This document shows positions 12,401 through 51,840 of a stretch of DNA of 64,000 nt, one piece after another. This stretch comes from Branchiostoma floridae. Its lineage: Eukaryota > Chordata > Leptocardii > Amphioxiformes > Branchiostomatidae. The notes under the pieces were generated by a model. That model searched no databases. It was not told the DNA's origin and worked only from the letters and a program-made list of their open reading frames with translations. Each line of letters opens with the position of its first letter. Position 1 is the stretch's first letter. The stretch is taken from positions 4,678,234-4,742,233 of the forward strand of contig NC_049985.1 in assembly GCF_000003815.2 (NCBI RefSeq). The letters are read 5' to 3'. Both the position numbers and the translations under genes were made by a program.

Positions 12401-15400
12401 CTGTGGATGAGACTGTTTCAGTGTAGCTTGTAACTGCAGGTGGTTGCCTGCGTTAGCTTTTATGGTATTTGCAGATAACAGATAATGATATAAGGTACAT
12501 GGTATTTGCTGCTTCTTTGTGTAGGTAAATCCTAACTCGTAGTTTGATAGATATTTTCTCCCTGTTTTCCAGAGTGGGAACTTCCTCCTGGCCACCTACA
12601 GATGTCAGGCCAACACCACCAGGCTGGAGGTCAAGGTCAGTCAGCAGGGTCAAGGTCATGACCTCAAGTTAAGCAATACGTACTAGTCACTAAGTCAAGT
12701 TACCTGCTTTGATGTGTATTTACAAGTTAGCAGTGCTCGAAATACCCGTTTGCCCACTTGAAAATGCAAGCACATTTTGCTTGGCGCAACCTGAAATTTT
12801 GCAATTGGAACACTGCTTTTGCCCCAACTACGTGCATAACCTTGTTTTTTTCATTGTGATAACATAAAACATATTACATGCAGTAATTACATATAACTGG
12901 AAGAAAAGGTAATGGATAAGTAACTGATTTGAAGAAAGAAACAGCTTGAAAGTGGGGCAACCTGAAATGTTGATGGTGCAACCTGGCTTTTGGCTCAGGT
13001 TGCCACTTGGACAACCTGACTGAAAAAAGTATTTTGGGCACTGAGTTAGTGTTCTCTCCACAATACTTCATACACTGAAATATTCAGTATTTATTTTCCT
13101 CTGCAGATTGTGCCTTGCACTGCCAACTATGATTGTTTCAAGAATGAATTTAAAACATTACAGTCCACTTTCCCCTTCTATTACCTAAGTCCCTATGGAC
13201 TTAATTAATTTGCATTGGTGTCAAGATCCCATGATAGTACATGTGTGTATGCTGCTTGACCCACAGATCCGATCCATTGAGGGTCAGTACGGAACTATCC
13301 AGGCGTATGTGACCCCCCGTATCCAGCCCAAGACGTGCCAGGTCAGGCAGTACTCCATCAAACCCCTGTCTCTGCACCAGAGGACTCACAGCTTCGATGA
13401 AAGCAGGTAGGTCAGGCAGTACTCCATCAAACCCCTGTCTCTGCACCAGAGGACTCACAGCTTTGATGAAAGCAGGTAGGTCAGGCAGTACTCCATCAAA
13501 CCCCTGTCTCTGCACCAGAGGACTCACAGCTTCGATGAAAGCAGGTAGGTCAGGCAGTACTCCATCAAACCCCTGTCTCTGCACCAGAGGACTCACAGCT
13601 TCGATGAAAGCAGGTAGGTCAGGCAGTACTCCATCAAACCCCTGTCTCTGCACCAGAGGACTCACAGCTTCGATGAGAGCAGGTAATGTGGAATAAATCT
13701 AATCAAATTAACGAAAAAGTATCCAAACATTTCTTACCACAAAATAACAACCTTGTTGTCTTCTTAATATGTTCTAGGTACTGTAAAAGACTGCTTACTG
13801 ATTATTATTGTAACATTTAATGATTAAGTCAATCCATATGTTGTATAAAATGTCATTATTTATTGTCTTAGACAAAAATAAATGTTGTGTACAAATCTAT
13901 CTGTTATACAAAGTTCTGGTAGATTTAGGAGTGATTTGGTACAATTTAGATATTATGTTAATGCCACAAGACACCCCTATGGACAGACAAACCCACTGAA
14001 AGAAATACTTAAAACCCTTTGATATGAAGTAAGGCATTCAGTCAGCATTAAAATCCAGAAAAGAGCTAGTGTTAACTCTAATCTGTCCACAGACCCATGA
14101 ATGTTCTGAAGATATCAGGAAACTTCAGCATGGCGGAGATACACTCCTGGGTCTGCTACTGTCTGCCTGAGCTGCCAGAGAGAACGCCGGTGGGAGACTC
14201 GGCGACCTTCTACCTACTCAACACATTCCTGGACACCCAGTTGGAGTGCACGTACAGGTGAGACCACTGGTAGACAGGGTGCAATGTTACATGTCTTAAG
14301 GCTTAGACAGCAACAACATATTAGCAACTTCTTCTTCTTTCCCTTGTGTATATATTATGTATCTTGTCCAGCAACTACACAGTCAGAAACAGTACCGGCC
14401 AACCTAAACTTTCCATGCTCGTACAAAGAGGAAGATTACCTAAAGTGGTTTTGGATCTGCCACAGAATTGACTTATGGGTCTGTCAGAAGTTGGTAGTTT
14501 CAATCTTCTCTGTCCTTTGTGCAGAACATTCTTGTAACCAAAACTGACAGATAGACACGTAGGATATTGCGGATTGAACTCCTAACAAAATTGTTAAACT
14601 TAAATTATATCTTGCAGAAAGGGAGAAGGTATCTTCCGATCAGACAACATTTCCACCATCTCCATCCTGAAGGATGTCATCACCAAGCAGGCCACACATC
14701 GCAAAGTCAACATCCAGATCACATATGGTACAGTTCTTCCTCTTTTCAGGGCTGTTATCAGGCCAATGTTACACAGGAAGAAAATATCTCTTCCAACAAG
14801 TCTACAAGTTCTGAAAGAACAGTTTTGGCACCATTACATTTTTAGGTATTGGTAACACAATTGTGTATATCAAGTCTGTATGGGTTATGTATTTACATCT
14901 TTTTAGTTTAGGTACGTTTGTGGCTGAGGCTGCACAGTTAACTTCAAAGTGAAATACAACTTCTTCTGAGCAAACTTTAAGAATGACAATACGAACGCAT
15001 GTCTAACCAACTAGCACATGAGTTACAAACTGTCAGTACATCCATGCAGCAGCTAGTGAAGCACATGCAAAGCTCAACATACATGTATGGCACATGAGGT
15101 ACTCGATAAGGCACATGACATTGTGTTTTTATAATATTTTGTATGACGATTGTTAGTACTTGTAATTGATTGTGGGATGTTGTTATATGTTTTGTATGAT
15201 ATGCCCAGTATCCATGTTTTCTGTGTAATTTGTTATTGCTGGAAGAGTAACTGTGGCATGTAACTGCGACAGCTAAAGGAATGATAACAAACAATAAACA
15301 AACAATAATGCAGTCTATCCTCCCCCTGCAGACCTGTCGGATGAGTCCATCCCCCACACACTACAACTGATCCACCCCCGACTGGAGTACCAGCTCCTGC

Positions 15401-23721: not shown

Positions 23722-26700
23722 CTAACTATTGTTCGAGGCAAGCAAATAATTTGTTTCAAAATCATCTTTATCATCTACGCCGTTAATCCACGTTTTGTTG
23801 TCGCTCTTTCTAAGAGGTTTGCGGAGTTCATCTTCTATTGCTTCCTCCTCCTCCTCCTCCGCCTCCCTCTCTTCTCCCCCTGACACTGAGGGAAGCAGAT
23901 GATTTGTTTCAAAATCGTCTTTGTCATCTACGCCACCAATCCACGTCTTACTACCACTTTTTCTGAAAGGTGCGTTTAGTTTGTCGGCTGTATTCCCTTC
24001 TTCCTCCTCCTCCTCCTCCTCCCTCTCCCCTCCCCCTGACACTGTGGGGCCGTCCCTTCCCGGAGCGGGCCTGGGCAGGTTGCAGGAGGCCGGCAGTCTG
24101 GTGCAGAGGAACATCACCAGGAGACACAGGACGGTCAGCAGGTAGAAGGTCAGATGGTGATCCATCGGCCAGGACATCCCTGGCGACAAACGGTAGAAAG
24201 ACAGGCACCAAATCAGGTTACTAGTATGTCATCAATCTTTACCTAATCGATGCTTAAGATAGTTAGGACTTACAAAACACTGAAAACTAAAAAAGATAAA
24301 ATAAAACGATAAGGATAATAAAGTTTATGCCGTGGATTTAAAAATGGTTTGGTCAGATGACACTGCACTGGTGAACTGTCTTTGAAACTAATTATATTTC
24401 AGCCATACCATAGGTATGGTGAAATATATTGTATTCGTAATGTTTCTTCTTTCTTTCTCCTGTCAAATCTTCAGAACACGGTATCTCCGTTGTTCCTCAA
24501 CCGAATGACTTGAAATTTGGCACAAGGGTAGAGTGGGCCAATAACCTCGGGCGTTTTCCATATCTGTCTCTTAAATGATTTTATTAAGGTTTTTTGGTCA
24601 TATTAAGACCAAAACTGTATATTTGGGCCCCCTGTACCCTGGTATTATAACCGAATGAGCTGAAATTTGGCACAGATGTGCCTTGATAAGTCCCCCATAT
24701 AGATTCAATATCAGTTTTGGTGTACAGTACAACAAAATGCTTATTTTTGCGATTTTTTGACCAATTTTTGACCAAAAAAGGACACTTTTGGCCCCTGTAC
24801 CCTGGTATTACAACCAAATGAGCTGAAATTTGACAGAGATGTGCCTTGATAAGTCCCCCATATAGATTCAATATCAGTTTTGGTGTACAGTACAACAAAA
24901 TGCTTATTTTTGCGATGTTTTGACCAATTTTTGACCAAAAAAGGACACTTTTGGCTCCTGTACCTTGGTATTGCAACCGAATGAGCTGAAATTTGACACA
25001 GATGTGCCTTGATAATCCCTTCATATAAATTCAATAACACTTTTGGTGTACAGTGCAACAAAATGCTTATTTTTGCGATTTTTGGCCAATTTTTGACCAA
25101 AAAAGGACACTTTTGGTTCCTGTACCCTGGTATTACAATTAAATGACCTGAAATTTGGTATAGATAGGCATTAGATACTTGGTAACAAGATTCAAGTAAA
25201 ATTTTTGACATAAACAACTTTAAAATGATTAATTTTGGCACTATTCTAATTGAGTCAAGTTAGCGTTCCCAGCCTGTTTGCGCATTCCTTAAGAAGCGTA
25301 AACAGGTTGGGGGCGCGCCACGTGACCTCAATTACACCTGGACATACTCACCTGACACAGGGGTACTTATTACACTGAGAAATCTTGCATTTTGTCATTC
25401 GGAGCGGACGAGCCTCACCGCAGCGTAGGGGAAGCTTCGCTACCACGTTTCTCGTCTTCTTCACGTGCTCCCGACTTTGTTTTTAGACCAGGTCTTCCCA
25501 GCGCGACAGATGCTGATTTTGAGAGCCCAGTGTTGTAGTCAGGTTTGGGGGATGGTTTACTCTTACCAAGGAGATTTAATAGCTCTTTGCTCTTACTTAT
25601 CGTCCTGGGGTTTGCAGACTACGGTTGGTCGGGTCGGAGAGCCCGAGTTTAGAGCCCAGGACGGGCAGTTTAACGTGGCAGCCTGGCGGCGGAGTTACTT
25701 GAACGTTTTGGCCGACTTAGAGCATTCTTCTTGGGGTTCACAGGTGAGACTTGATTAGGTTCCTTTAAATTTGTTGTTCCTATTAGTATTATTTTTTTGT
25801 GGAGCATGTCCACAGTGCTGCTTTTTCGATTTTGGATTCCGCTAGTATTGTTTAACGTTTTATTGTGGAGGGTAACCACTAGTAAATTGTTTTTTGTTTT
25901 GTGGAAGCTATCCACTAGAACTTGTTTTTTATTTCCGCGGAAGGATTCTGCTAGTATGTTCTCTCGTTTTATGTGGTGGGTAGCCACTAATAAATGATTT
26001 ATTGTTTTGTGGAGGCTATCCTTTAATAATTTGTTTATCGTTTCCCCGGAAGGAGTCCGCTAATAATGTACTCTCGCCTTATGTGGTGGGTAACCACAAG
26101 TAAATGATTTATTGTTTTGTGGAGGCTTTCCACTAATAAATTGTCTTTCGTTTCCAGCGGATAGAACTAGTCCGCTAGTAAATGTTCTCGTCGCCTTAAT
26201 GTGGTGTGTGACCACAAGTATAATGATTTATTGTTTTGTGAGCTTTNNNNNNNNNNNNNNNNNNNNNNNNNNNNNNNNNNNNNNNNNNNNNNNNNNNNNN
26301 NNNNNNNNNNNNNNNNNNNNNNNNNNNNNNNNNNNNNNNNNNNNNNAGCATTATTTTGATTTGTATCATGGACATATCTTTGTTATGTATAAACATGCAT
26401 TGTATTGTTTGTAAACTCTGTGTATACGTGTACCCAGGACTGGGCGTCCTAGGAAAGCAGTGCTAACCAGTGCTACCCAGAGTTACCCTGGTTAAAGAAT
26501 ACAGAAATGAATGATTACTAAATAAATATCAACATACATGACAAAACGGTACTTACCGTAGATGTTGAATCCCGGTGCAATAGTTCCATTGTCTGGAAAA
26601 CAACAAACGAAAATCAATCTCTTCAACTTTTTTTGATCAAGAATGCGTTTCGAATCGAATCGCCAGGAGGTTTTTTTTAATAGATGTAATATTAGTCAAA

Positions 26701-29700
26701 GGAGAACAACATAACACGTTTTGCACGTGATGACTGATGAAAAAGAGACAGCATTTTGATTTGATTTTGATAATAGTAATAGTAAAGTTTATTGCAAATT
26801 CTTGCCCGTGGGCTAATTGCAGGTAACATAAGAGATTCAAACATTGTAAAAAACAATATCACAAGTGTCTACTCTAGTCTAAAGCTAGTAAAAGATAACT
26901 CTACCTGGGTTATTGGGTTCGACTCCTTTTTTGAAGACAGTAGAAGAGGAAAGATCCCACCTTTTCTATTATGTGTGGGTTTTGTGATGTTAGAAGGAGA
27001 ATTGTTGTCTTTTTGTCGGTGAATGTGAAGAAGTTTGAGTGGAATTTGGTGGCCTCTTCAAACAGCTCTTTTCTTTCGTGATCGTAGAAAGAGCAGTTTG
27101 ACGAAACAAGTATTTCGTCTTCCACCACATTTGACGTGAATTGTTTGCACGTTCTTTCACACACATAATTATGTCAGTGTGGCCTAAGCTGTTAATGATT
27201 AGAAACCTAAACTCACTTTCCATGGCATATCCCACCACTCCTACCCCCTCCTGAGGGTTGAGGAGGACGCCGGTAAACACCCGGTCCCGGTCATCTTCAA
27301 ATACCACGTTCATGTCTGAAACATGTCAACAAACGCATGAATACATGGGTAAAATCCGCCTAAACCTTAAGTTGATACGCGAAAATACTTTTCAAAATTG
27401 GCGACATATCCAGAGTAAATTCTTACACAATGTGGATAACATGCATCGATACGTAAGAGGACTGCAGACTATGTAACTGATTCGCTAGTGTTTTTAAACT
27501 CTTGGATACGCTTCCTAAGTCTTTGCTGACAAAATAGTGCGGTTCGGATGAGAGATTCGAGCCTAGAACGCCTCTACAACATGTAGATAAGAAGGTAAGG
27601 GTTAGCAGAATAGTACAGTCGTACCTGGGAGACCAGAGTCTTCTTGTCTCTTATCTTGGCGGGGGCCGCCATGGCTGGACATGGCCTGGAAATATAGAAC
27701 AAGCATGTCAGTGACACTGGGCTTCGAATGGCNNNNNNNNNNNNNNNNNNNNNNNNNNNNNNNNNNNNNNNNNNNNNNNNNNNNNNNNNNNNNNNNNNNN
27801 NNNNNNNNNNNNNNNNNNNNNNNNNNNNNNNNNNNNNNNNNNNNNNNNNNNNNNNNNNNNNNNNNNNNNNNNNNNNNNNNNNNNNNNNNNNNNNNNNNNN
27901 NNNNNNNNNNNNNNNNNNNNNNNNNNNNNNNNNNNNNNNNNNNNNNNNNNNNNNNNNNNNNNNNNNNNNNNNNNNNNNNNNNNNNNNNNNNNNNNNNNNN
28001 NNNNNNNNNNNNNNNNNNNNNNNNNNNNNNNNNNNNNNNNNNNNNNNNNNNNNNNNNNNNNNNNNNNNNNNNNNNNNNNNNNNNNNNNNNNNNNNNNNNN
28101 NNNNNNNNNNNNNNNNNNNNNNNNNNNNNNNNNNNNNNNNNNNNNNNNNNNNNNNNNNNNNNNNNNNNNNNNNNNNNNNNNNNNNNNNNNNNNNNNNNNN
28201 NNNNNNNNNNNNNNNNNNNNNNNNNNNNNNNNNNNNNNNNNNNNNNNNNNNNNNNNNNNNNNNNNNNNNNNNNNNNNNNNNNNNNNNNNNNNNNNNNNNN
28301 NNNNNNNNNNNNNNNNNNNNNNNNNNNNNNNNNNNNNNNNNNNNNNNNNNNNNNNNNNNNNNNNNNNNNNNNNNNNNNNNNNNNNNNNNNNNNNNNNNNN
28401 NNNNNNNNNNNNNNNNNNNNNNNNNNNNNNNNNNNNNNNNNNNNNNNNNNNNNNNNNNNNNNNNNNNNNNNNNNNNNNNNNNNNNNNNNNNNNNNNNNNN
28501 NNNNNNNNNNNNAGCGTAGGGGAAGCTTCGCTACCACGTTTCTCGTCTTCTTCACGTGCTCTCGACTTGTTTTTAGACCAGGTCTTCCCAGCGCGACAGA
28601 TGCTGATTTTGAGAGCCCAGTGTTGTAGTCAGGTTTGGGGGATGGTTTACTCTTACCAAGGAGATTTAATACCTCTTTGCTCTTATTTATCGTCCTGGGG
28701 TTTGCAGACTACGGTTGGTCGGGTCGGAGAGCCCGAGTTTAGAGCCCAGGACGGGCAGTTTAACGTGGCAGCCTGGCGGCGGAGTTACTTGAACGTTTTG
28801 GCCGACTTAGAGCATTCTTCTTGGGGTTCACAGGTGAGACTTGATTAGGTTCCTTTAAATTTGTTGTTCCTATTAGTATTATTTTTTTGTGGAGCATGTC
28901 CACAGTGCTGCTTTTTCGATTTTGGATTCCGCTAGTATTGTTTAACGTTTTATTGTGGAGGGTAACTACTAGTAAATTGTTTTTTGTTTTGTGGAAGCTA
29001 TCCACTAGAACTTGTTTTTTATTTCCGCGGAAGGATTCTGCTAGTATGTTCTCTCGTTTTATGTGGTGGGTAGCCACTAATAAATGATTTATTGTTTTGT
29101 GGAGGCTATCCTTTAATAATTTGTTTATCGTTTCCCCGGAAGGAGTCCGCTAATAATGTACTCTCGCCTTATGTGGTGGGTAACCACAAGTAAATGATTT
29201 ATTGTTTTGTGGAGGCTTTCCACTAATAAATTGTCTTTCGTTTCCGCGGAAGGGCTAGTCCGCTAGTAATGTTCTCTCGCCTTATGTGGTGGGTAACCAC
29301 AAGTAAATGATTTATTGTTTTGTGGAGGCTTTCCACTAATAAAGTGTCTTTCGTTTCCGCGGAAGGAGTCCGCTAGTAAAATTTCTCTCGCCTTATGTGG
29401 TGGGTAACCACAAGTAAATGATTTATTGTTTTGTGGAGGTTTTCCACTAATAAATTGTCTATCGTTTCCGCGGAAGGAGTCCGCTAATAATGTTCTATCG
29501 CTTTATGTGGTGGGTAACCACAAGTAAATGATTTATTGTTTTGTGGAGGCTTTCCACTAATAAATTGTCTATCGTTTCCGCGGAAGAAGTCTGCTAGTAA
29601 TGTTCTCTCGCCTTATGTGGTGGGTAACCACAAGTAAATGTTTTATTGTTTTGTGGAGGATTTCCACTAATAAATTGTCTATCGTTTCCGTGGAAGAAGT

Positions 29701-35137: not shown

Positions 35138-38100
35138 ACAAAATGATAATGTGTGGAAGTGTGCTGACGATCAACAACTGGTGAAAATATAATCCCCAAA
35201 TTCCTGACAACGCTGTTACGAGCCCTTGCGAATTAGCAAAACTGATATATAGCTCGGCTATTAACTAAGTGTAAGTCCTTACCGCACCAGATAGTGCATT
35301 GGGCAGTGCCCATCTCCTTCTCAATAGCCCTTGGGCCCCAGAACGTTTGTGCAATCACTGTTACTGTGTTAGTGGCGTTTTTTCAACTACCATATTATTT
35401 TTCCAAACTCTGAGTGCTATAAGCAGATCTAGAGGAAGCAGTGCGTATCAAACATGTTTGAAGTCTTTGGTATGACTCGGCCAGCGATCGACCCACCACT
35501 TGGCCAGTATAACGGTAGCTCGGCTACAGAAAATTTGGCGAAAAATCGCTAAGACATAAATTCTACCCTACAGTAGCAACGATGATCAGTATCGTACTTT
35601 CCCTGTTCCATCATCATTATGACAGACAGCAGCGGTCCCCAAACTCTGGCGGGAACTTCTGATGCCGAGTGCTGGGAGGTCCTCCGCCTGTCCCCGGCTA
35701 GCCGACACTGGCCGGTAAGCGGCCTCTCGACTGTTGTGTTCAGTTCTTTCGTCACTACGACGTACAGGGGAGAGGTTGAGCTACGCTGTGAAATTGGATG
35801 TATGTAACTTTCTGTTACTGGTGCTGAGGTAGACAAATATGCAGAATCAGCCTTGGAAGTTAGTGTGAAATCGCTAGAGTTCGCTGTTTGGTTTGCGACT
35901 TCATGAGGTTGCCGACTCCGTACAGTTGGCTGTATGTGACTTTCTGTTACGGAGGGTGAGACCAACAGATACTCAGAGTCTGCTGTGAAGTTTAGTGTGA
36001 CACCACTAGAGTTCGCTGTTTGATTTGAGACTTTAAGAACTTCCTGACTCGTTATGGCCCCTGTGATGTCGACCATGGACGGGAGCATGACGATCCCCAC
36101 TGCGTACAGCGCCACTCCCCACATGTACACCGTCTTGTAGGTGAACTTGGACGCCAGGAAAGGGTTAAGTGTCGCCTTAAGGAGAGAGAGAACCACGAAA
36201 GGAGTCAATCATTTTAGATCCAATAATATCCAATACCAAAAATGGGCAAAACTAAATTTGTCCAACTCCACCAGTCTTTGTCAAGGAAACTTTAGTGTTT
36301 CCTTGACAAAGGCAGGAGTTTTTCAGCCAATAATTTGTTAAAGTCATAGTTTCTATCGAGGAAGTTATGTAAAGTTCTTGCTTCTATCAACACAGATTTC
36401 AAGTTCATCAATTATCTTTATTAATGTAAACTGTTTGTCATTATAAGTTCAAAAAGTCATATGCTGCAAAGTTAGATTTCGTATCGTAAGAAAGAAGAAG
36501 GAACTACCTGTGCGGCGGTACTATAAATGTGGCCAACGGTCAGGACGATGGAAATCTCTGCAGCATCAAAGTTGTAGCCGCCATGTTGAGAGTCAGACAC
36601 CAGTAGGAGAGGTAACAACTGTAGGTTTTAATTTAGTAAAAAAAAAAATTCACCATTGTTCAAAATCACTTTGTCAAAATCCCATTGCCTGTATGATATG
36701 AGCTAAAACTAGCTTCTGTAAAAATTTCACGTCATTAAAATGAAGACATGACGCCCCATCAGTACCCCCGCTTTCACAAACAACTCTAGAATACACTCTG
36801 GCAGTGCTAGACATAGATACATCATCAGTGATGAACTGAATGTTTCGGGTCCTCAACCCGGGCCACCGGTACCCAGCCGAGGTTGATTCATCCCCCGACT
36901 TGTGTCCAAATGGAATTCTAATCAATCAACGGAACCATAACCGACGCGACGTCTTCTCCGCTGTTCATGAAAACAAACGGTAAGATTACAGGGAGCACTT
37001 TACAAAAAGTTTGTCTTTACTCTGTGGCCCCACAGAGTGCAAGATGCAGAAGAGTCTGGAATAGTTCAAGGGAGGGGTTCCTCAGAGAGAGCGACAACAC
37101 CCTGCCATGAGTGAGAAAGTGTATACATTACAGGGACTTCAAATATAAGCATCCATTCGTACGCGTCTATTCACACAGGCGACATCGTTCCAGTACGCAG
37201 TATCTCTTTGGTGGTTTACTTCAAATCTGACTGCCTCTGACCTGATCGCAGCAGATGTGAGCCAGCGCGAAGAGAGCGTACAGCGCACAGGGCATCAGCA
37301 CCAGTCTGTCCCGCAGTAATCTGCAGGTGGACTCTTGCTGTTCTGTGGGAAATACTCAAAACTTAATTCAGTATGAAATCTAAGTCGTCAGGAAGTTTGA
37401 ACAAATGACTAAACACACTGAGTACGGTATGTCCAACAATAGATTTTTCATTTTTGTCCTTTCACATCTTCGACTTTGGAATGTGCTTTAGCGTTCTATG
37501 ACATTAGTATCCGTTTTCTTTTCTTTTTTTATATCTAATGGTAATAATGATGGCGATTTAACGCAAGCAGGTATATACATGTAAGCCAGATAGTAGCCAA
37601 AAAACAGCGGTACAGTTACTCACGGTGTGGCTTTTCCTTGTCTTCTTCTCCTACCTCATGATTGGACATTTGGGTCAGGCTGATGTAATCAGCTTTGGGC
37701 TTCTTGTCCAGAGATTCTCCCAGGAAAATGCAGCCAACTGTTGTGAAAAGTTTTATACAAGTCAAAATCGCGTACGTGAATGTACTATCGTGGTTTTAAC
37801 AAACAGGGCAATTGAATCAAACGCTGTGATTTAAGCAACAACATAGCAAAAATGTGTTTTGAAACAGTCGGATGTCTAGTATAGCTGATGTCGGAAACTA
37901 GAGTCTTTACTTTAGGTTTGTTAAGTTTTGTTAAGTTTAATTTAATTTAATTTAATCTACTGTGATACAATGTGGCCCCTAAGGGGTCTATTCTTCCAGG
38001 GTTCGTACACACATTACACAACCACAGATACTCACAATTTGAAAATCTACAATACATACCAATTGCAGCATTGAAAAATCTAAAATCATTCAGCTTTCCC

Positions 38101-42824: not shown

Positions 42825-44599
42825 ACGTGGACTAGCCACTAATTTTGTATGCCCTTGCTCTCGTTGAAATATTTCAAAGAGAATGATAGTAACATAGGAT
42901 AGAGGTCTTAGTGCCAACTTTTTTTCCTCGTGTGGATGTCATCAATATAACCAGTGTCGTGTTACCATATAGAATGACGCAGATTGGAATTTGCATGAGT
43001 CTTTCCTGACTTCGTTTTAAGGCGGGGAACATATCCCCAAATTTCTAAAAATCTACACATGAGAAAACGGTTTACCAACATTTGTGGTAAACATGTTGTA
43101 GATTTACCTCCATGGGTACTCGTACCACAGGAGAAAAGCCCAACAAGTTATTAACCTTTCTATACAAGTCACCATCTCCACCGGATGGACATGCCGTGTT
43201 GTGTTCGTGGTAATGACCATTAGATATTGCGTATCTCATGTGTTTTGTGCATGTAGAGCTCGAGTTCGATTTATCAAATATGAAAATCCATGTTCCGTAT
43301 GTAATGAAAATGAACCGTGTTGCTGCATATACTGCATATATCTGGGATTTCTAAAGGAAGAGTGTTAGTTTAAAACGGACCACTGAAGACGTTTGACACT
43401 TTTCCTTTGGAGATATTTTGTTCTTCGCTTCTCATTAACATAACTTCTACCTGTCGGTGACGTCATAGTCGCATCCCTGGGGCACTGATATGCAGTTCTA
43501 AAATAGTCCGCTAGATGATCTATGCTTCTATACGGACAACCTTTAAAGTTCACGGATTTGACATGTAATCGTCACTAGTGGGTATATTTGTCATCACAAC
43601 AATGATGCAAAGTGAATATAGGAAAGGATTCTTAAAAGGTGAAGCACTTCTGGTAATCCGACTTCCATCATAAATGTTGCCTGAAAGAAGGAACCGTACA
43701 CACCTTCCTTGTTATCTTACGAGTTTGATTATTTATTCATTTGCACAATAGATAAAACAGTAGGGGAAAAACATATATGGGTTACACTAGGCCGTTTGTC
43801 TCTATACTAAACAACATTGATTATAACGTTCATCGGTAAATAATAAAGCAAAGCACAAATGTAGTACACTAGACAAGAAACTTAAGACTGAGTGGTGGCG
43901 GCCAAGAACTATTTTGCCTTGTAAATTGTAATAAGAGACCAGCTCCTGAAACTCGAAGGTAGCAAAACACGCCTATAGGGATTTACATGACTAAGAACCC
44001 CAAAGTCAGGTCTGACGCCTCAAAATTTATAGCAGGGTGCACTAGAAATTTACAACAGTTGAATAATTATGTTGAAGTTTAGCGGGTTCGTACAATCTAC
44101 AATATATGTGAAAATGAGGTAACGTTTTCTGCTCGTTCTCTTTTAAAACTCACCTTTATTTGACCCAATGAACGCACAACAGTTGACGGTGATATTAGGT
44201 ATTAATAAGGGAAAAGTCACCTCGACCGAACAAACATCGTAACTCAGCTCATACAGTCTCTGAAAACTTAAGAATTCACCACAGTTTCTTACTCGTTGAC
44301 ATGCACAGAATAATTTCTAGTACTGTGGCGAACTTCTTTGTGCCCGACCTATAGCTTCTTTTGCATTCTGAGCATGTAGGTTTTATGTATTTTCAACAGG
44401 TTACCTGATATGCGTAGAAGCGATTGAGAAGCTTTAGCGTATTGAACCTTTCACCTTTGAATAGATGACGTAATGTTGCCAAAAGCAATATGACACCTGT
44501 TTGTGTTCAAGTCAGGCGCATAAGGGTATATGTAAACACGGGACTGAGTCCGGTGCCCTTGGATATGGAGACCTCCCCTTAGCACAGTAAGATTTCGCC
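42825..44599. other. Intergenic spacer between divergent genes
   Basis: It separates the MFS gene (leftward) from the TPR gene (rightward) and so should hold the TPR promoter. No TATA box or other site can be assigned with confidence, and no coding region is seen. Confidence 0.4.
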
Positions 44600-45298
44600 A
44601 TGTTGAAGGTCTGTGAGAATCTCCGCGAGGCTGACATAAAGGGCAGGAGGTACGGACTAGCCCGTGCGGAGACAGGCTACCTCCGTGCCCTGGTGGACGC
44701 CACGGCTGACAAGGACAGGCTGCTTCAAGTGGAGCTGCTCAAAAGTCTGGGCGACGTGAACTTGGAGAAGGGAAGACTCGGGAGGGATTTAGGGAAGCTC
44801 AACATGGCCTTGGCACTTTACATTGCTGCTATGGTCCGGTGTGACCATCGGGAGCAGGGAGAAGGTATAGAACACCGATACGAATACACGGAGAGGCTTG
44901 TACAAGGGGTGTGCCCAAAGGGATCACAGGTTCGGGAACGGCCAACTGCAGACAAGGAAATGACTACACCTTCAATGGTGGCAGAAAAATTTCAAGATTT
45001 GGACAACAACCGGACTACCGGTGGTAACACAGACTTTATGCTGGTTGGGTACGCGCAATTGATTGTAGAAGGGATAGTAAACGATAACAACATGTTAGAA
45101 ACAGATGCGATCAAAAGTTGCGGTGACGTGTACCTGAAAAGAGGAACAGAAACTAGAGACACGAGAGACTTAACCAGAGCTACTGCTCTGTACAACACGG
45201 CACTGACGCGGTGTAACAACTTTCAGGGAACAGTTGCCATTGTCCACCGCTTACTGCACACCGCAAAAATCAGACAAGATATCACCATAAGCATAAAC

Positions 45299-47026
45299 GT
45301 GAGTGTTTAACGATTGCAGCTTCTTATATTGATATAGTTTACACCCTTACTGTTTTTTTTTTAATTCTACTATGATTTGGACTGAGTGTGTTCTGTTCCT
45401 CTGAGCAAAGAATAGCCCGGAAGTCGTGAATGTGTTTTCACAATATTTGGCCTACGGGTAGACGAAGGTCTTGACCAAAGGAATGTACCATATTCTATTG
45501 GGTCCATGATGCCCAAATAAACAACCAGTCACCACATTTACAACTTTTGGCGATCTTCGAGTCAAGGCGGTTCTTTTCCCTCAAACATTCGCCAAATAGC
45601 AATTGCACGTTGAATAACACGATTGCCCACCTGTTAACCATTCCTATCGCTTCTTGTAGAGGCCAACTCGTATGCAACATGTTAAGCACCCATGGGTCCC
45701 TGTCTGTTTTTATAGAGGCCAACTCGTACACAACGACAGCAAGACGTGAGAAGACGCGTAGGGAAGGACCACTTCTCACCATCCTCAAGTGCACCCTTAA
45801 GCAACATCATTAATGGCGGAATGCGCCGTCTACACAAGTAGGTACAGGGAATGCAGGTTCTTTTGGTAACTTTGACTATCTTATAAGGTATGCATCACTA
45901 ATAGTTAGATAATGATAACAGGCATTTTGTTATTTCTCTTCAGTTCCCCGGACCCGCAGAAAGCTGAAAACCCGACACGAGTTGACGAAGACAAGTTAGT
46001 GTCACCCATTTGCTTGTTTACTATTTCACAGGTTTGAAATGAAAATGACGGTAAGTTAACGTTCCTTGCATTGTAATTTGTTTAAAAAACTGGAGGGGTT
46101 GAACCAGGCCTTTCCGTTGAAGCAAATATGCCCAAAAAACACATGGAGGAGGACATTCAATGAGGACCTGAGGGGAGTCAACATCACATGGGGAATGGCA
46201 GAGCAGGCTGCGTCTGACAGAGGACGATGGAGACTACTTGCTGCCCAATGTTCCTCACGGCACAGGAGGACCTAAGTACTAAGTACTAACTAAGTAAATA
46301 TGCCCAAACAACACGAGAAGCTGCGGATGGATCTTCATAATATTTGGTATCTGGGTAGGTGTCGACAAAGACAAAATACAAGTTTGATTGTTGATCTCCG
46401 GATGGCCTGCTGTGCTGCAGCAGGACTTCCGGTTTTTATATTTCGTGCTCTGGACATGACCTTTCATGATAACTTTTGGGTTCATGCATATCTTTGGGCC
46501 CTCTAGCAGCTTTTAAGGAACAAAGGGGGGCTTTGATAATTTGAAAGGGAATAACTGAAAAAGAAGTTGACGGATCGTCATGATTTTTGTTAGGTCTTAA
46601 AAGTTTACATAATGATTGAAATTATTATATGAGAGTGAGTTATAAAAATTAGTACCTAATTCGCATAATTGATCAGTAGATTGTATAGATCCTACGTGTG
46701 CCATCATAGGAGTTTCAAACATGTGCAAGATGAAGCTGAGAAAGAGGGACATAGAGTGATATTGATATAATAATAGATATCTTATTTGCGTGATACATAA
46801 AGATATGGAAAGACCATAACGTTAAATGATTGGGATTCATACTATTTTGCTAAGTATTGGCAAAGTATTAGATTCTAGAATAGCATACATGCATTTAAAC
46901 AACTAATGTCTAAATTTTATCACATTTGATATCAATGGTTATTAAAACTTAACTTTGTGTTAAAAATAGAAACTATTTGGATTATGATTTTTTATAGTTT
47001 ATATTATGGCATCTTTTTTTTAACAG
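45299..47026 (+). other. Introns of the TPR gene
   Basis: They hold a short direct repeat (GAGGCCAACTCGTA at about 45659 and 45715) and, at 46330-46470, a copy of a dispersed repeat (GGTATCTGGGTAGG, GCAGCAGGACTTCCGG, TTTCGTGCTCTGGACATGAC) related to 6195-6225, 16640-16695 and, reversed, 52265-52300. No other gene seen. Confidence 0.4.
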
Positions 47027-48995
47027 TGTATACGAAGAACATCTACAAGATGGCTGTAGGGCCCTGCAGACTGGAGACCTGGACAAAGCAGAACAGAGTT
47101 TTGCAGCCGCGCTGAAGTCTGTTCATGTCAATGGTGAGTCTGAGGATGAACATAGTTCAAAGAACTTAACTACTTGTAAATGGTCCACGGTCCTTGGGTC
47201 TTGTCGACACACAAAACTATGTCTCCATTTGTATTATATTTCATAAATAAGGCGTTTCAAATACGACAATCAGAAATACTGATGACAAAGACCACTGTAG
47301 GGCTAATCAGCAAGGTTCAGTTATTAACTTAAGAATGTGCGAATAGAAATACAAAAAATATTATAGCATTCCATAGGTTTACTTCCCGAACCGAAGACGT
47401 AAATATAAAATTGTCATCTCTTAACAAATCAACTTATAGGTCAACACAAGAAGGAGGCAGAGCCCATGTACAAGTTGGGCGATGTCTATCTGAAGAGAGG
47501 AATCCAGTCAAAGGACGGGGGTGATTTCACCAAGGCTGCAGCACTCTGTAATGCAGCACTGGTAAGGTCAAGGAGAGAAGATATATGGGGAAACGACCCA
47601 GAAAATAAGTCAAGCATTTGTTGAGGAAGTCCTGGGGATAGATCATAAGGTACACAGTGATGATACAGAAAAACACAAATTGATGCTGAAGGCTGATCGG
47701 GACTATGTAGAAAACGAGATCAAAAGAATTGAACAAGAGGCAGATCCATATAGCCTTGATGACGAGGACCCAAAGATAAAAGAAGTGGAGAAAAAGAGAG
47801 TGGAATCAATCAAAGCATTGTGTCAGACACTTACTAAGCAGCGTAAAACGTTCATATCTGGTCTTGTAGATGAATGCATGGAGGTAATGGGCCCCCCTCC
47901 CTGTAAGTACGCCATGATAGGTTTGGGTTCACAAGCCACAGGATTGGTAACACCATACTCTGATCTGGAATTTGCCATTTTGGTAGAGGAGGAAACCGAG
48001 AATAATGTTAGCTACTTCCCAACCTCACCCATTATCTGCATCTCAAAGTGATAAATCTAGGAGAGACCATTCTACCGACCATGGGGATTAAGTCTCCTAA
48101 TGATTTCTACTCAAGAGTCCCGCTAGACAGCTGGTTTTATGACTCAGTAACACCGCGTGGTTTGGCGTTCGATGGAGCCATGCCACATGCATGCAAGACT
48201 CCACTTGGCAGGGGTAGAAACAGCACAGGAACAAGCGAACTCATCCGCACACCAAGAAATATGATGAACATTCTGACAAATGATCTTTCGTTCCATTTAA
48301 AGAAAGGCTACCATCTTGCGAGTATACTGGGAAATGTGTCACTTATCACAGGAGAACAGGGCTTAGTCAATGAGTACAGGTCTTTATGGACACAGCAACT
48401 TCGTGAAAATAGCGGTAAAATTCAGTTTGTAATGGCAATTACTGACCTGAGGGAAAATGCGTCTATGTTTCAAACCCAGGCTCTCACTGCCAGTCTGCTG
48501 AATGTCAAAAAAGAAATCTACCGATTTTCGAGCCTTGCGGTGTCTTTTTGGGCGCTACTTCATAACATACAACCGACCACGATCTGGGAGACTATTCAGG
48601 AGCTGAGATACAGAGAAGTCATCAGTAGTGAGAACGCACACCACTTGATGGTGCTGGTCAGCATCTCAGCAGAACTGAGGCTGTGGACATACATGAACAA
48701 TCGTGGTCAGGTCGAAAATATGTCAGCATTATCGTCAATGTCGATTGGTACGGGAAATGTGGAGAAATTAAAGCAGGTCTTCTATATCTCAAGTACAAAA
48801 CAGCTCATGAGATACTATTACACAGAAAGACCATTGAAGCGCTTTATTTCACAACTCACCGACAGTCATAAGCCTTTCGAAGAGCCACCAATTTTCTATG
48901 ACAACTCTTCAGAACTGAAGGCAGAGGTATATAAAAGACTGTGCGATTTTCACAATTTCAAGACATGCACGGAGCAAACACTACAAGACTATTTG

Positions 48996-51840
48996 TCCAA
49001 ACATGGTACAAACACCGCACATGGTGACGTTGCCGCCTCCCTGAACAACCTGGGTACCGCCTGTACGGACCTTGGAGATCATAGAAAGGCAGTAAACTAT
49101 TATGATCAGTCACTACAGATGAAGCGGAATGTTTATGGTGAATGCGCTACCAACACTCACATCGCTACCTCACTAAACAACTTGGGCAACGCCTGGAGTC
49201 ACCTTGGGGATCACAGAAAGGCCATCGGCTATTACGAACAGTCATTAGAGATGGAGCGAAGTATCTTTGGTGAGGGTACCGCGCATCCTGACATCGCTAG
49301 CTCACTTCACAACTTGGGTGGAGCCTGGAAAGACCTTGGAAATCACCGAAAAGCTGTCAGCTACTATGAACAGTCACTATAGATGAACCGAAGCATCTAC
49401 GGTCATAATACTATAAATCCTGACATCGCTGAATCACTTAACAACTTGGGTAACGCATGGAGAAACCTTGGGAATCACAAAAAGGCGCTCAACTATTATG
49501 AACAGGCACTACAGATGAAGCGGAGTATCTACGGTCAGGACACCGCACATCCAAGTATCGCCAGCTCACTTAACAACTTGGGCAACGCCTGGAGTGACCT
49601 TGGAGATTCACAAAGGGCGATCAGCTGTTATGTACAGGCACTACAGATGATTAGAAATGTCTATGGGGAGGGCAATATACATCCTGACATCGCTATCTCA
49701 CTAAACAACTTCAAGGAGTAACGCATGGTGCAACATTGGGGATCACAGAAAGGCAGTCGGCTATTATGAACAGGTACTACAGATAAACCGGAGTATGGTG
49801 AGGACAATGAACATTCTGATATCGCATGCTCACTTTACAACTTGGGTAATGCATTGGTGATCATATGCACTGCCTTGGTGATCACAGAAAGGCGGTCAGC
49901 TATCATGAACAGTCACTACGGATGAAGCGGTGTATCTATGGTGAGAACACTGCACATCCTGACATCGTCACCTCACTTTACAACTTGGGTGCCATTTGGT
50001 ATAACCTTGGAGATTACAAAGAGGCGATCAACTATTGTGAACAGGCACTGCAGATGAGCCGGAGTGTCTATGACAAAGACACTGCACATCCTGACATCGC
50101 CAGCTCACTTAACAATTTGGGTCACGCCTGGAGTAGCCTTGAGAATCACAGAAAGGCGTTAAGCTACTATGAACAGTTACTACGGATTAACCGAAGCATC
50201 CATGGTGAGGACACTGCACATTCTGACATCGCCAGATTACTTAACACATTGGGTTGGGCTTGGAGTAACCCTGGGTATTACAGAAAGGCGGTTAACTATT
50301 ATGAACAGTCACTACAAATGGAGCGGTGTACCTATAGCGAGGGCACTGCACATCCCCACATCGCCACCTCACTTAACAACTTGGGTGCCGCTTGGTATAA
50401 CTTTGGGGATGACAAAAAGGCGGTCAGCTATTTTGAACAGGCATTGCACATGCGAGAGAGTATCTACGGTGAAGGCACCGCACATCGTGACATCGCCAGT
50501 CCGCTTAACAACTTGGGTGACGCCTGGAGTAGCCTTGGGGATCACAGGAAGGCAGTCAGCTATTATGAACAGGCACTACAAATGCAAAGGAGTATCTATG
50601 GTAAAAACACTGCACATCTTGATATCGCCCGCACACTTCACAACTTGGGTACAGCCTGGAGAAGACTGGGGGACCACAGAAAGGCAGTCAGCTATCATGA
50701 ACAGGCACTTAATATGAAACAGACTATCTGTGGTGAGCACACTGCTCATTCAGATATTGCAGGTTCACTAAATGACTTGGGTGTTACCTGGAGTGACCAT
50801 TGGGATCACAGAAATGCGATCAGCTATCATGAGCAGTCACTGCAAATACAGAGGAGTATCTATGGTAAAGACACTGCACATCTTGGCGTCGTAAGCTCAC
50901 TTACCAACTTGGGTAGCACCTGGAGTAAACTCAGAGATCACGTAAAGGCGATCAGCTATCACAAACAGGCAGTACAGATGATGCAGACTATCTATGTTGA
51001 GGATAGTAGACACCCCCATATTGCCAGCTCACTTAATAACTTGGGTCTTACGTATAGCGAACTTGGTGATCACAAAAACGCGGCCAGCTATTACGAACAG
51101 GCACTAAAAATGAAGAGGACTGTGTATGGTAAGGGCACTGCACACCCTGACATTGTCATCTCACTTAACAATTTGGGTAGCGCCTTGAGTAAGCTTGGGG
51201 ATCACAGAAAGGCGGTCAAACATTTTGAACAGTCACTGCAGATAACACGGAGTATCTATGGCGAGGACACTGCGCATCGTGAGATCGCCGGCTCGCTTAA
51301 GAACTTGGGTAACGCCTGGAGTAACCTTGGGGATCACAGGAAAGCGATAAGTTATCAGGAACAGGCACTACAGATGTTGCTGAATATCTATGGTGAAGGC
51401 ACCGCGCATCCTGATATTGCCGGCTCACTTGACAACTTGGGAAGCATCTGGAGAAACCTTGGGGATCACAGAAAGGCGGTAATCTATCATGAAAGGGCAC
51501 TACAGATGAAGCTTAGTATCTATGGAGAGAACAACAATGCACAACCTGACATTTCCAGCTCACCAGCTCTTGGGCATTAAATAAAGGTGGTCAGGTATCA
51601 TGAATGCATCACAGATGAAGCGATATACTTGTGACGATGATGATGATAACACCGTGCACCTTGATATTGCCACTTTACTTAACTTCTCACGGCCTGGAGT
51701 AACCTTGGGGATCACAGAAAAGCTGTCACCTAGCATGAACAACCACTACATGTGAATCGGACTATGTATGGTGAGGATACTGCACATCTTTGTATCGGAG
51801 GCATATTTATCAACTTGGGCAACGCCTAAAGCAACCTTGG
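48996..51840 (+). repeat. Tandem 126-bp TPR repeat array
   Basis: About 22 copies of a 126-bp unit encode 42-residue TPRs without introns. DNA-level words such as AACAACTTGGGTAACGCCTG, CTTGGGGATCACAGAAAGGC and GAACAGGCACTACAGATGAA recur from unit to unit. A second frame is also open for 182 codons at 50169-50717, a by-product of the repeat. Confidence 0.9.

Follow-up and report, generated by a model that had tools for sequence, protein, structure and literature searches.

The window analyzed here is a stretch of 64,000 nucleotides of the genome of the amphioxus Branchiostoma floridae (C7:4678234-4742233). On its forward strand, between 44.6 and 51.8 kb, it carries fragments of a single type of protein, in which N-terminal modules are followed by a helical linker, a nucleotidyltransferase (NTase), further helices and a long array of tetratricopeptide repeats (TPRs). 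The window contains assembly gaps, but the part at 44-52 kb is free of them. This copy is an ordinary pseudogene, and the interest lies in the family to which it belongs, whose intact members may be protein nucleotidyltransferases of the kind represented by GlnE and DrrA. All of the searches within this genome cover 513 Mb in 431 contigs.

The first part, exon A (44600..45298), is an open frame that starts with an ATG at 44600, encodes two N-terminal modules and ends in phase 0 at a GTGAGT donor at 45299. It has no Pfam match above the cut-off and is most similar to the paralog L017, with 79% amino acid identity and 88% DNA identity across 44596-45290. Exon B (47027..47133) is short and TPR-like, with splice sites that were read from the sequence, and its product shares 70% amino acid identity with that of L021 and 88%, over 34 residues, with that of L069, which lies upstream of L047. 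Exon C begins at 47440, after an acceptor AG at 47438-47439, with a third N-terminal module (47440..47590; 71% amino acid identity to L021). It is followed by the helical linker, the DUF294 nucleotidyltransferase and a C-terminal helical domain (47634..49010), supported by the DUF294 match and by the predicted fold of paralogs; this part is 73% identical to the L021 protein in each of two pieces. The match to DUF294 (PF03445) covers 47566-48048 with an E-value of 8.3e-5 and 22.9 bits, above the cut-off of 21, and includes an intact catalytic motif of the form Gly-X11-Asp-X-Glu at 47926..47970. The TPR array occupies 49012..51563 and comprises about 19 units of 44 residues (132 bp), which match the Pfam models TPR_10 and TPR_12 and are of the kinesin-light-chain type. 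Tandem Repeats Finder reports 18.8 copies of the 132-bp unit at 49036-51525. Beyond the array, from 51564 to 51840, there are decayed TPR remnants with stops in every frame. An earlier note on this DNA, made from the sequence alone, had proposed a nucleotidyltransferase fused to such an array, and this architecture is confirmed; its count of about 22 TPRs is fair if the decayed remnants are included. The N-terminal modules that it described are likewise found elsewhere in the family, as an exon-A-like match lies upstream of the NTase exon in 8 of 20 paralog regions and an exon-B-like match in 15 of 20. These regions extend only about 3.5 kb upstream, so misses carry little weight.

Amino acid identities link exon A to one subfamily and exons B-C to another: exon A shares 79% with L017 but 36% with L021, and for exon C these values are 48% and 76%. 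One explanation is that the window holds pieces of two adjacent genes, namely an L017-type exon A and, separately, exons B and C of the L046/L047 type. In addition to the discordant identities, this explanation is favored by the fact that exon A was not found within 3.3 kb upstream of the exon regions of L046 or L047. Moreover, all five loci with an exon A end it in phase 0 at a good donor, and the first acceptor of exon B requires two incoming bases in ten of ten loci. The two are therefore incompatible in phase if joined directly, which calls either for an exon that links them or for their assignment to separate genes. On the other hand, a linking exon would resolve the phase, and there is one candidate between exons A and B in the window, with a faintly similar one in L017. 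A same-strand exon-A-like match upstream, in the 8 of 20 regions mentioned above, also speaks for a single gene. Furthermore, L019, whose exon C is open, has a milder discordance of the same kind: its exon A is nearer to L017 and L018 (49-50%) than to L028 and L021 (35-40%), whereas its exon C is nearer to L028 and L021 (66% and 57%) than to L017 and L018 (51-53%). Altogether, the presence of two genes falls just short of an even call. The segment at 46060-46275 on the forward strand lies between exons A and B, at the transition from L017-like to L047-like sequence; the end of its translation may resemble that of the reverse-transcriptase open reading frame of a long interspersed nuclear element (LINE).

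As assembled, the window copy cannot encode the full protein. It has five frame changes, one in-frame stop codon and decay beyond about 51560. The first two frame changes, from frame 3 to 1 at 47580..47600 and back from 1 to 3 at 48015..48020, fall where L046 and L047 are both open. The stop codon, a TAG, is at 49380..49382, within the TPR array, and it is followed by three further frame changes (3 to 1, 1 to 3 and 3 to 2) at 49712..49860, located near 49.71-49.72, 49.79-49.80 and 49.85 kb. L046, which is 81% identical to the window copy at the DNA level, has a single open frame of 1193 residues over the corresponding exon; L046 and L047 are the closest of the loci compared and not necessarily the closest in the genome. 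The open frame of L047 changes frame within its own TPR array (L047:2529 onward), and L047 may be another broken copy. Thus, the earlier note's description of a copy with at least six lesions and long stretches that stay open stands, and the intact paralogs that it suggested looking for, and comparing with each lesion, do exist in the same genome.

The age of the break can be approached through the ratio of nonsynonymous to synonymous substitutions (dN/dS). In the NTase part this ratio is 0.15-0.28 in ten distinct paralog pairs; values from the TPR arrays, which align poorly, were set aside. Between the window copy and L046 the ratio is 0.29. With L021 as the outgroup, the branch leading to the window copy has a dN/dS of 0.20 if L046 is taken as its sister, or 0.31 if L047 is, and the branches of L046 and L047 have 0.53 and 0.21, respectively. 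Such low values on the window branch imply that its divergence accumulated mostly under constraint and that the break is recent relative to that divergence, as the earlier note had supposed. The window copy is thus a recent casualty. Alternatively, the lesions might be sequencing or assembly errors, or might be confined to one allele of a gene that is otherwise functional. Repeat arrays are prone to misassembly, three of the frame changes fall inside a stretch of about 150 bp of the array, and the low dN/dS of the window branch would also fit. Nevertheless, two frame changes are in unique sequence and absent from L046 and L047, and the TAG and the 3′ decay are also present, so this alternative is quite improbable.

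The family is large. A DUF294 profile search of the genome gave 119 matches, all above the cut-off, after scoring 150 of 262 candidates, and 104 of the 119 lie within open frames of at least 600 residues. A degenerate DNA pattern for the motif S-D-[LFIM]-E-F-A-[IV]-L finds 248 sites (125 and 123 on the two strands), in comparison with 1 and 0 for the reversed pattern. The 248 are motif sites rather than proven genes, and they include the window copy, which is absent from the 119. Copies form same-strand runs spaced by about 10 kb, for instance at C7:0.96-1.18 Mb. Tandem runs beside some broken copies make birth-and-death turnover plausible, in agreement with the multigene family that the earlier note had envisaged.

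The catalytic motif is highly conserved across these copies. Its Gly, Ser, Asp and Glu are invariant in alignment A2, which holds 16 of the 20 paralog regions (L010 and L014 were omitted for stops within the matched part, L011 and L012 for being short or divergent). Among 20 further cores, sampled at intervals of five rows from the rest of the DUF294 list, D-x-E-F-A is present in all and GS-x-A in 19, the last one, L066, having GS without the Ala; other conserved blocks fail in L053 (at an assembly gap), L054, L062 and L066. In total, Gly-X11-Asp is found in 43 of 43 sequences from this genome (the 20 regions, the 20 cores, L046, L047 and the window copy) and the motif Glu in 42 of 43. Both elements are also present in all 17 bacterial loci described below. 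The conservation of these residues among paralogs, another check proposed at the outset, is therefore borne out.

A fold prediction from L021 and 14 paralogs (without L010, L011, L012, L014 and L024) reached a mean predicted local distance difference test score (pLDDT) of 79.5. Since a first fold search was swamped by the TPRs, the NTase and helical part was folded alone, from alignment A3, with 16 rows from this genome and 11 of the 17 bacterial loci, and reached 82.3. In the VIA ranking of structural matches, DrrA comes first with 25.5 Z units, followed by the N and C domains of GlnE with 23.2 and 22.8. Partial DrrA chains (10.7 and 10.0) and aminoglycoside enzymes (at most 7.8) come next, and Foldseek agrees with this ranking. 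The core is thus predicted to be a polymerase-beta-like NTase with the helical domain of GlnE and DrrA. Sequence profiles agree less strongly: at E<=0.01, all 27 aligned rows match DUF294, 13 match SidM_N, 13 match DUF294_C and two match GlnD_UR_UTase; with SidM_N, L013 and L042 score 28.1 and 42.4 bits against a cut-off of 27. Two acidic residues, E136 and D172 of A3, are invariant in all 27 rows and are candidates for the third metal-binding acid. The earlier note had likened the core to GlnD/DUF294; the DUF294 part stands, and fold and motif together group the core with the protein adenylyltransferases GlnE and DrrA rather than with GlnD/DUF294 alone.

Other domains and relatives were also considered. 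No NACHT or related ATPase of the NLR/STAND type was found in Pfam scans of pieces of the window and of L009, L013, L015, L016 and L021. HEPN ribonucleases have a conserved R-x4-6-H in their helical domain; no His occurs among the invariant or near-invariant columns of A3. PADLOC gave no match for L021 and weak ones, of at most 18.4 bits, for L015 and L016. In a PDB sequence search, the 60 matches listed of 147 were all to TPR or TPR-like proteins, judging from their names or the part matched, and none was to the NTase. Weak matches to the UIM profile were seen at residues 143-156 of L015 (16.5 bits) and in the last 80 residues of the Rickettsiaceae protein L030 (20.3 bits); as both are below the cut-off of 21, a link to ubiquitin is not claimed.

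In contrast to the core, the TPR arrays vary among copies. Between 4 and 18 TPR units are recognized in 12 of 13 paralogs, and none in L023 by the profile model used. Units share 47% identity within a locus and 41% between loci. In terms of entropy over 145 units, positions 1, 4, 8, 11 and 12 rank 1, 6, 4, 3 and 5 of 44 (p 1.1e-5). Under Gly-8 numbering, which we assume here, alignment at the conserved Gly gives an offset of one residue, and these positions correspond to TPR positions 2, 5, 9, 12 and 13. In the available part of a published account, positions 2, 5, 9, 12, 13, 33 and 34 are the most variable and lie on the concave face of the superhelix (PMC1261162); position 30 is equally variable here and outside that published set. 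The bacterial arrays, with 34 units from 5 of 6 loci, vary in a similar way (p 5.8e-4). TPRs with diverse ligands commonly show variation of this kind, which does not reveal what the ligands are.

Relatives were also found in bacteria. Seventeen loci emerged from a scan of prokaryote genomes, all from metagenome assemblies by title: 10 Chlamydiota, one Cytophagales, one Rubrivivax and five from Rickettsiaceae, Rickettsia-labelled or alphaproteobacterial records together with GWC2_42_16. The label Rickettsia typhi on three of the bacterial loci could not be confirmed. Profile searches detected relatives in 34 of 232 genomes of the phylum of G005 at E<=1e-3 and, at E<=1e-15, in 8 of 216 of the order of G002 and 2 of 296 of the phylum of G003 (one a partial match); these thresholds differ, and each set includes the genome on which it was centred. 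In one bacterial genome the number of matches reaches 36, a figure that includes fragments of a single gene. The N-terminal module is also shared with bacteria: scored with a profile built from six animal loci, 8 of 11 bacterial proteins exceed the highest value among 1100 shuffles. In a tree of 16 rows from this animal and 11 from bacteria, a branch with support 83/94, recovered in 86% of 200 bootstrap trees, sets the animal rows apart, with Parachlamydiaceae and one Rickettsiaceae row as neighbors; two bacterial rows are long branches, and the tree does not fix the direction of transfer. The nearest relatives found outside the animal are mostly in bacteria with an intracellular lifestyle. 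The Parachlamydiaceae protein L032 has, N-terminal to its NTase (residues 180-262), a weak methyltransferase-like match of 21.2 bits (cut-off 27). A viral origin was rejected, because of the 68 pattern stretches found in IMG/VR none was confirmed as a relative by the NTase profile.

Several known systems share part of this design. One review lists four families of AMP-transferring enzymes (AMPylases), Fic, SelO, GS-ATase and DrrA, and in the available parts of two reviews GS-ATase and DrrA are regarded as bacterial (PMC8097203, PMC12409994). GlnE, the GS-ATase, is described as having no TPR array, glutamine synthetase as its target and two domains of opposite activity. The N-terminal AMPylase domain of DrrA/SidM (Pfam SidM_N) is 13% identical to the core, and DrrA, as far as its available description goes, is a bacterial effector with exchange-factor and lipid-binding parts, none of which was seen in the amphioxus family. 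A closer likeness in architecture is to NEX2 of Neochlamydia, for which the available text describes 50 proteins with an F-box, DUF294 and TPRs, tested members of which have a working secretion signal (PMC4209131). The mid-protein DUF294, the multiple C-terminal TPRs and the birth-and-death expansion are shared; by contrast, most NEX2 members have an N-terminal F-box and are bacterially secreted, and no F-box was found at E<=1 in exons A and B of the window or in the N-terminal pieces of L013 and L015, to which the scan was limited. This likeness is to the published description and not a sequence comparison. The coral TPR-CHAT genes, by their available description, are another invertebrate family in which TPR genes, hundreds of them in tandem, carry an effector-like domain (PMC12314368), although with CHAT instead of a nucleotidyltransferase. 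Finally, FICD is an animal AMPylase whose TPR motifs set specificity (PMC8065156, in part), but its Fic fold is an unrelated catalytic domain and there is reportedly one gene per animal (PMC12409994, in part). Searches of the open-licence literature for this family or its enzyme class gave, among the matches listed, no description of the family in animals.

The best explanation as a whole is that intact members are protein nucleotidyltransferases of the GlnE/DrrA kind, and we give it an even chance. In such proteins, the TPR superhelix would capture a client protein, and the central NTase and helical domain would attach a nucleotide to one of the client's side-chain hydroxyls, AMP derived from ATP being the likeliest. 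As the number of TPRs and the residues of the groove vary from copy to copy, one reaction could be directed to many targets. The family may derive from the effector repertoire of an intracellular bacterium; tandem duplication, accompanied by losses of which the window copy is a recent one, would then have enlarged it. A fuller version, in which an animal lineage took over a TPR-guided AMPylase effector from intracellular bacteria and multiplied it to about 250 copies with diversified grooves, is doubtful; the tagged proteins would then possibly be those of the invaders themselves, or host proteins that invaders attack, and the enzymes would form an AMPylase class with no animal description in the literature searched. 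A possible immune role is suggested by the expansion and by analogy.

Some observations weigh against the AMPylase explanation. The activity is predicted from fold and motif, the motif is degenerate, and enzymes with the polymerase-beta fold also include ones that transfer UMP, modify antibiotics or act on RNA. Confidence in the prediction is low at the conserved FDGxMP stretch, as residues 139-178, which hold its FD, have a pLDDT below 50. SidM_N reaches E<=1e-3 at just two sites in this genome, and its 13 matching rows were obtained at the looser threshold. Matches to NCBIfam are to GlnD uridylyltransferase and the MntA antitoxin, all far below cut-off. One copy, L012, has Asn in place of the motif Glu (D-x-N), and the samples, being chosen by the DUF294 profile, favor intact cores. 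In addition, according to the available part of one account, the N domain of GlnE removes AMP and its C domain adds it (PMC8097203); as the N domain is an equally good match, fold alone does not set the direction of the reaction.

Among the alternatives, transfer of another nucleotide such as UMP to protein, as in GlnD, or of a nucleotide to a small molecule, is unlikely. L015 does match GlnD models (best E 7.5e-6), and both the two GlnD_UR_UTase rows and the aminoglycoside enzymes, as the next-ranked folds, point in this direction. However, the GlnD scores are far below the cut-off (24.4 bits against 799), GlnE and DrrA are ahead of the aminoglycoside enzymes by at least 15 Z units, and long TPR arrays suggest protein clients. 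AMP removal, which the GlnE N domain would allow, or a scaffold without catalysis whose TPRs bind clients, is distinctly unlikely given a motif intact in 42 of 43 sequences and the low dN/dS of the NTase. Synthesis of a nucleotide second messenger upon ligand sensing, as by cGAS-like receptors, would suit an NTase family that is large and expanded and whose repeat array could sense ligands, but it is very improbable with GlnE and DrrA at the top of the fold lists and no cGAS or OAS among the matches listed, a listing that does not exclude them.

Elsewhere in the window, the same 129-residue open frame occurs twice on the reverse strand, at 25673-26059 and 28763-29149, identical over the first 120 residues. 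The two copies adjoin 110-bp tandem arrays and the N gaps at 26247-26346 and 27733-28512, and are perhaps an assembly duplication. At 13340-13685 there are five tandem copies of a 69-bp unit, 98% alike and open on both strands. An open frame of 219 residues with hydrophobic stretches, at 35552-36208 on the reverse strand, perhaps represents membrane-protein exons.

If GlnE/DrrA-like transfer is indeed what the intact members perform, animals would gain, with about 250 such cores, an extensive system of protein modification. It would also link an animal system to the effectors of intracellular bacteria, and the targeting of one reaction by repeat arrays would become testable.

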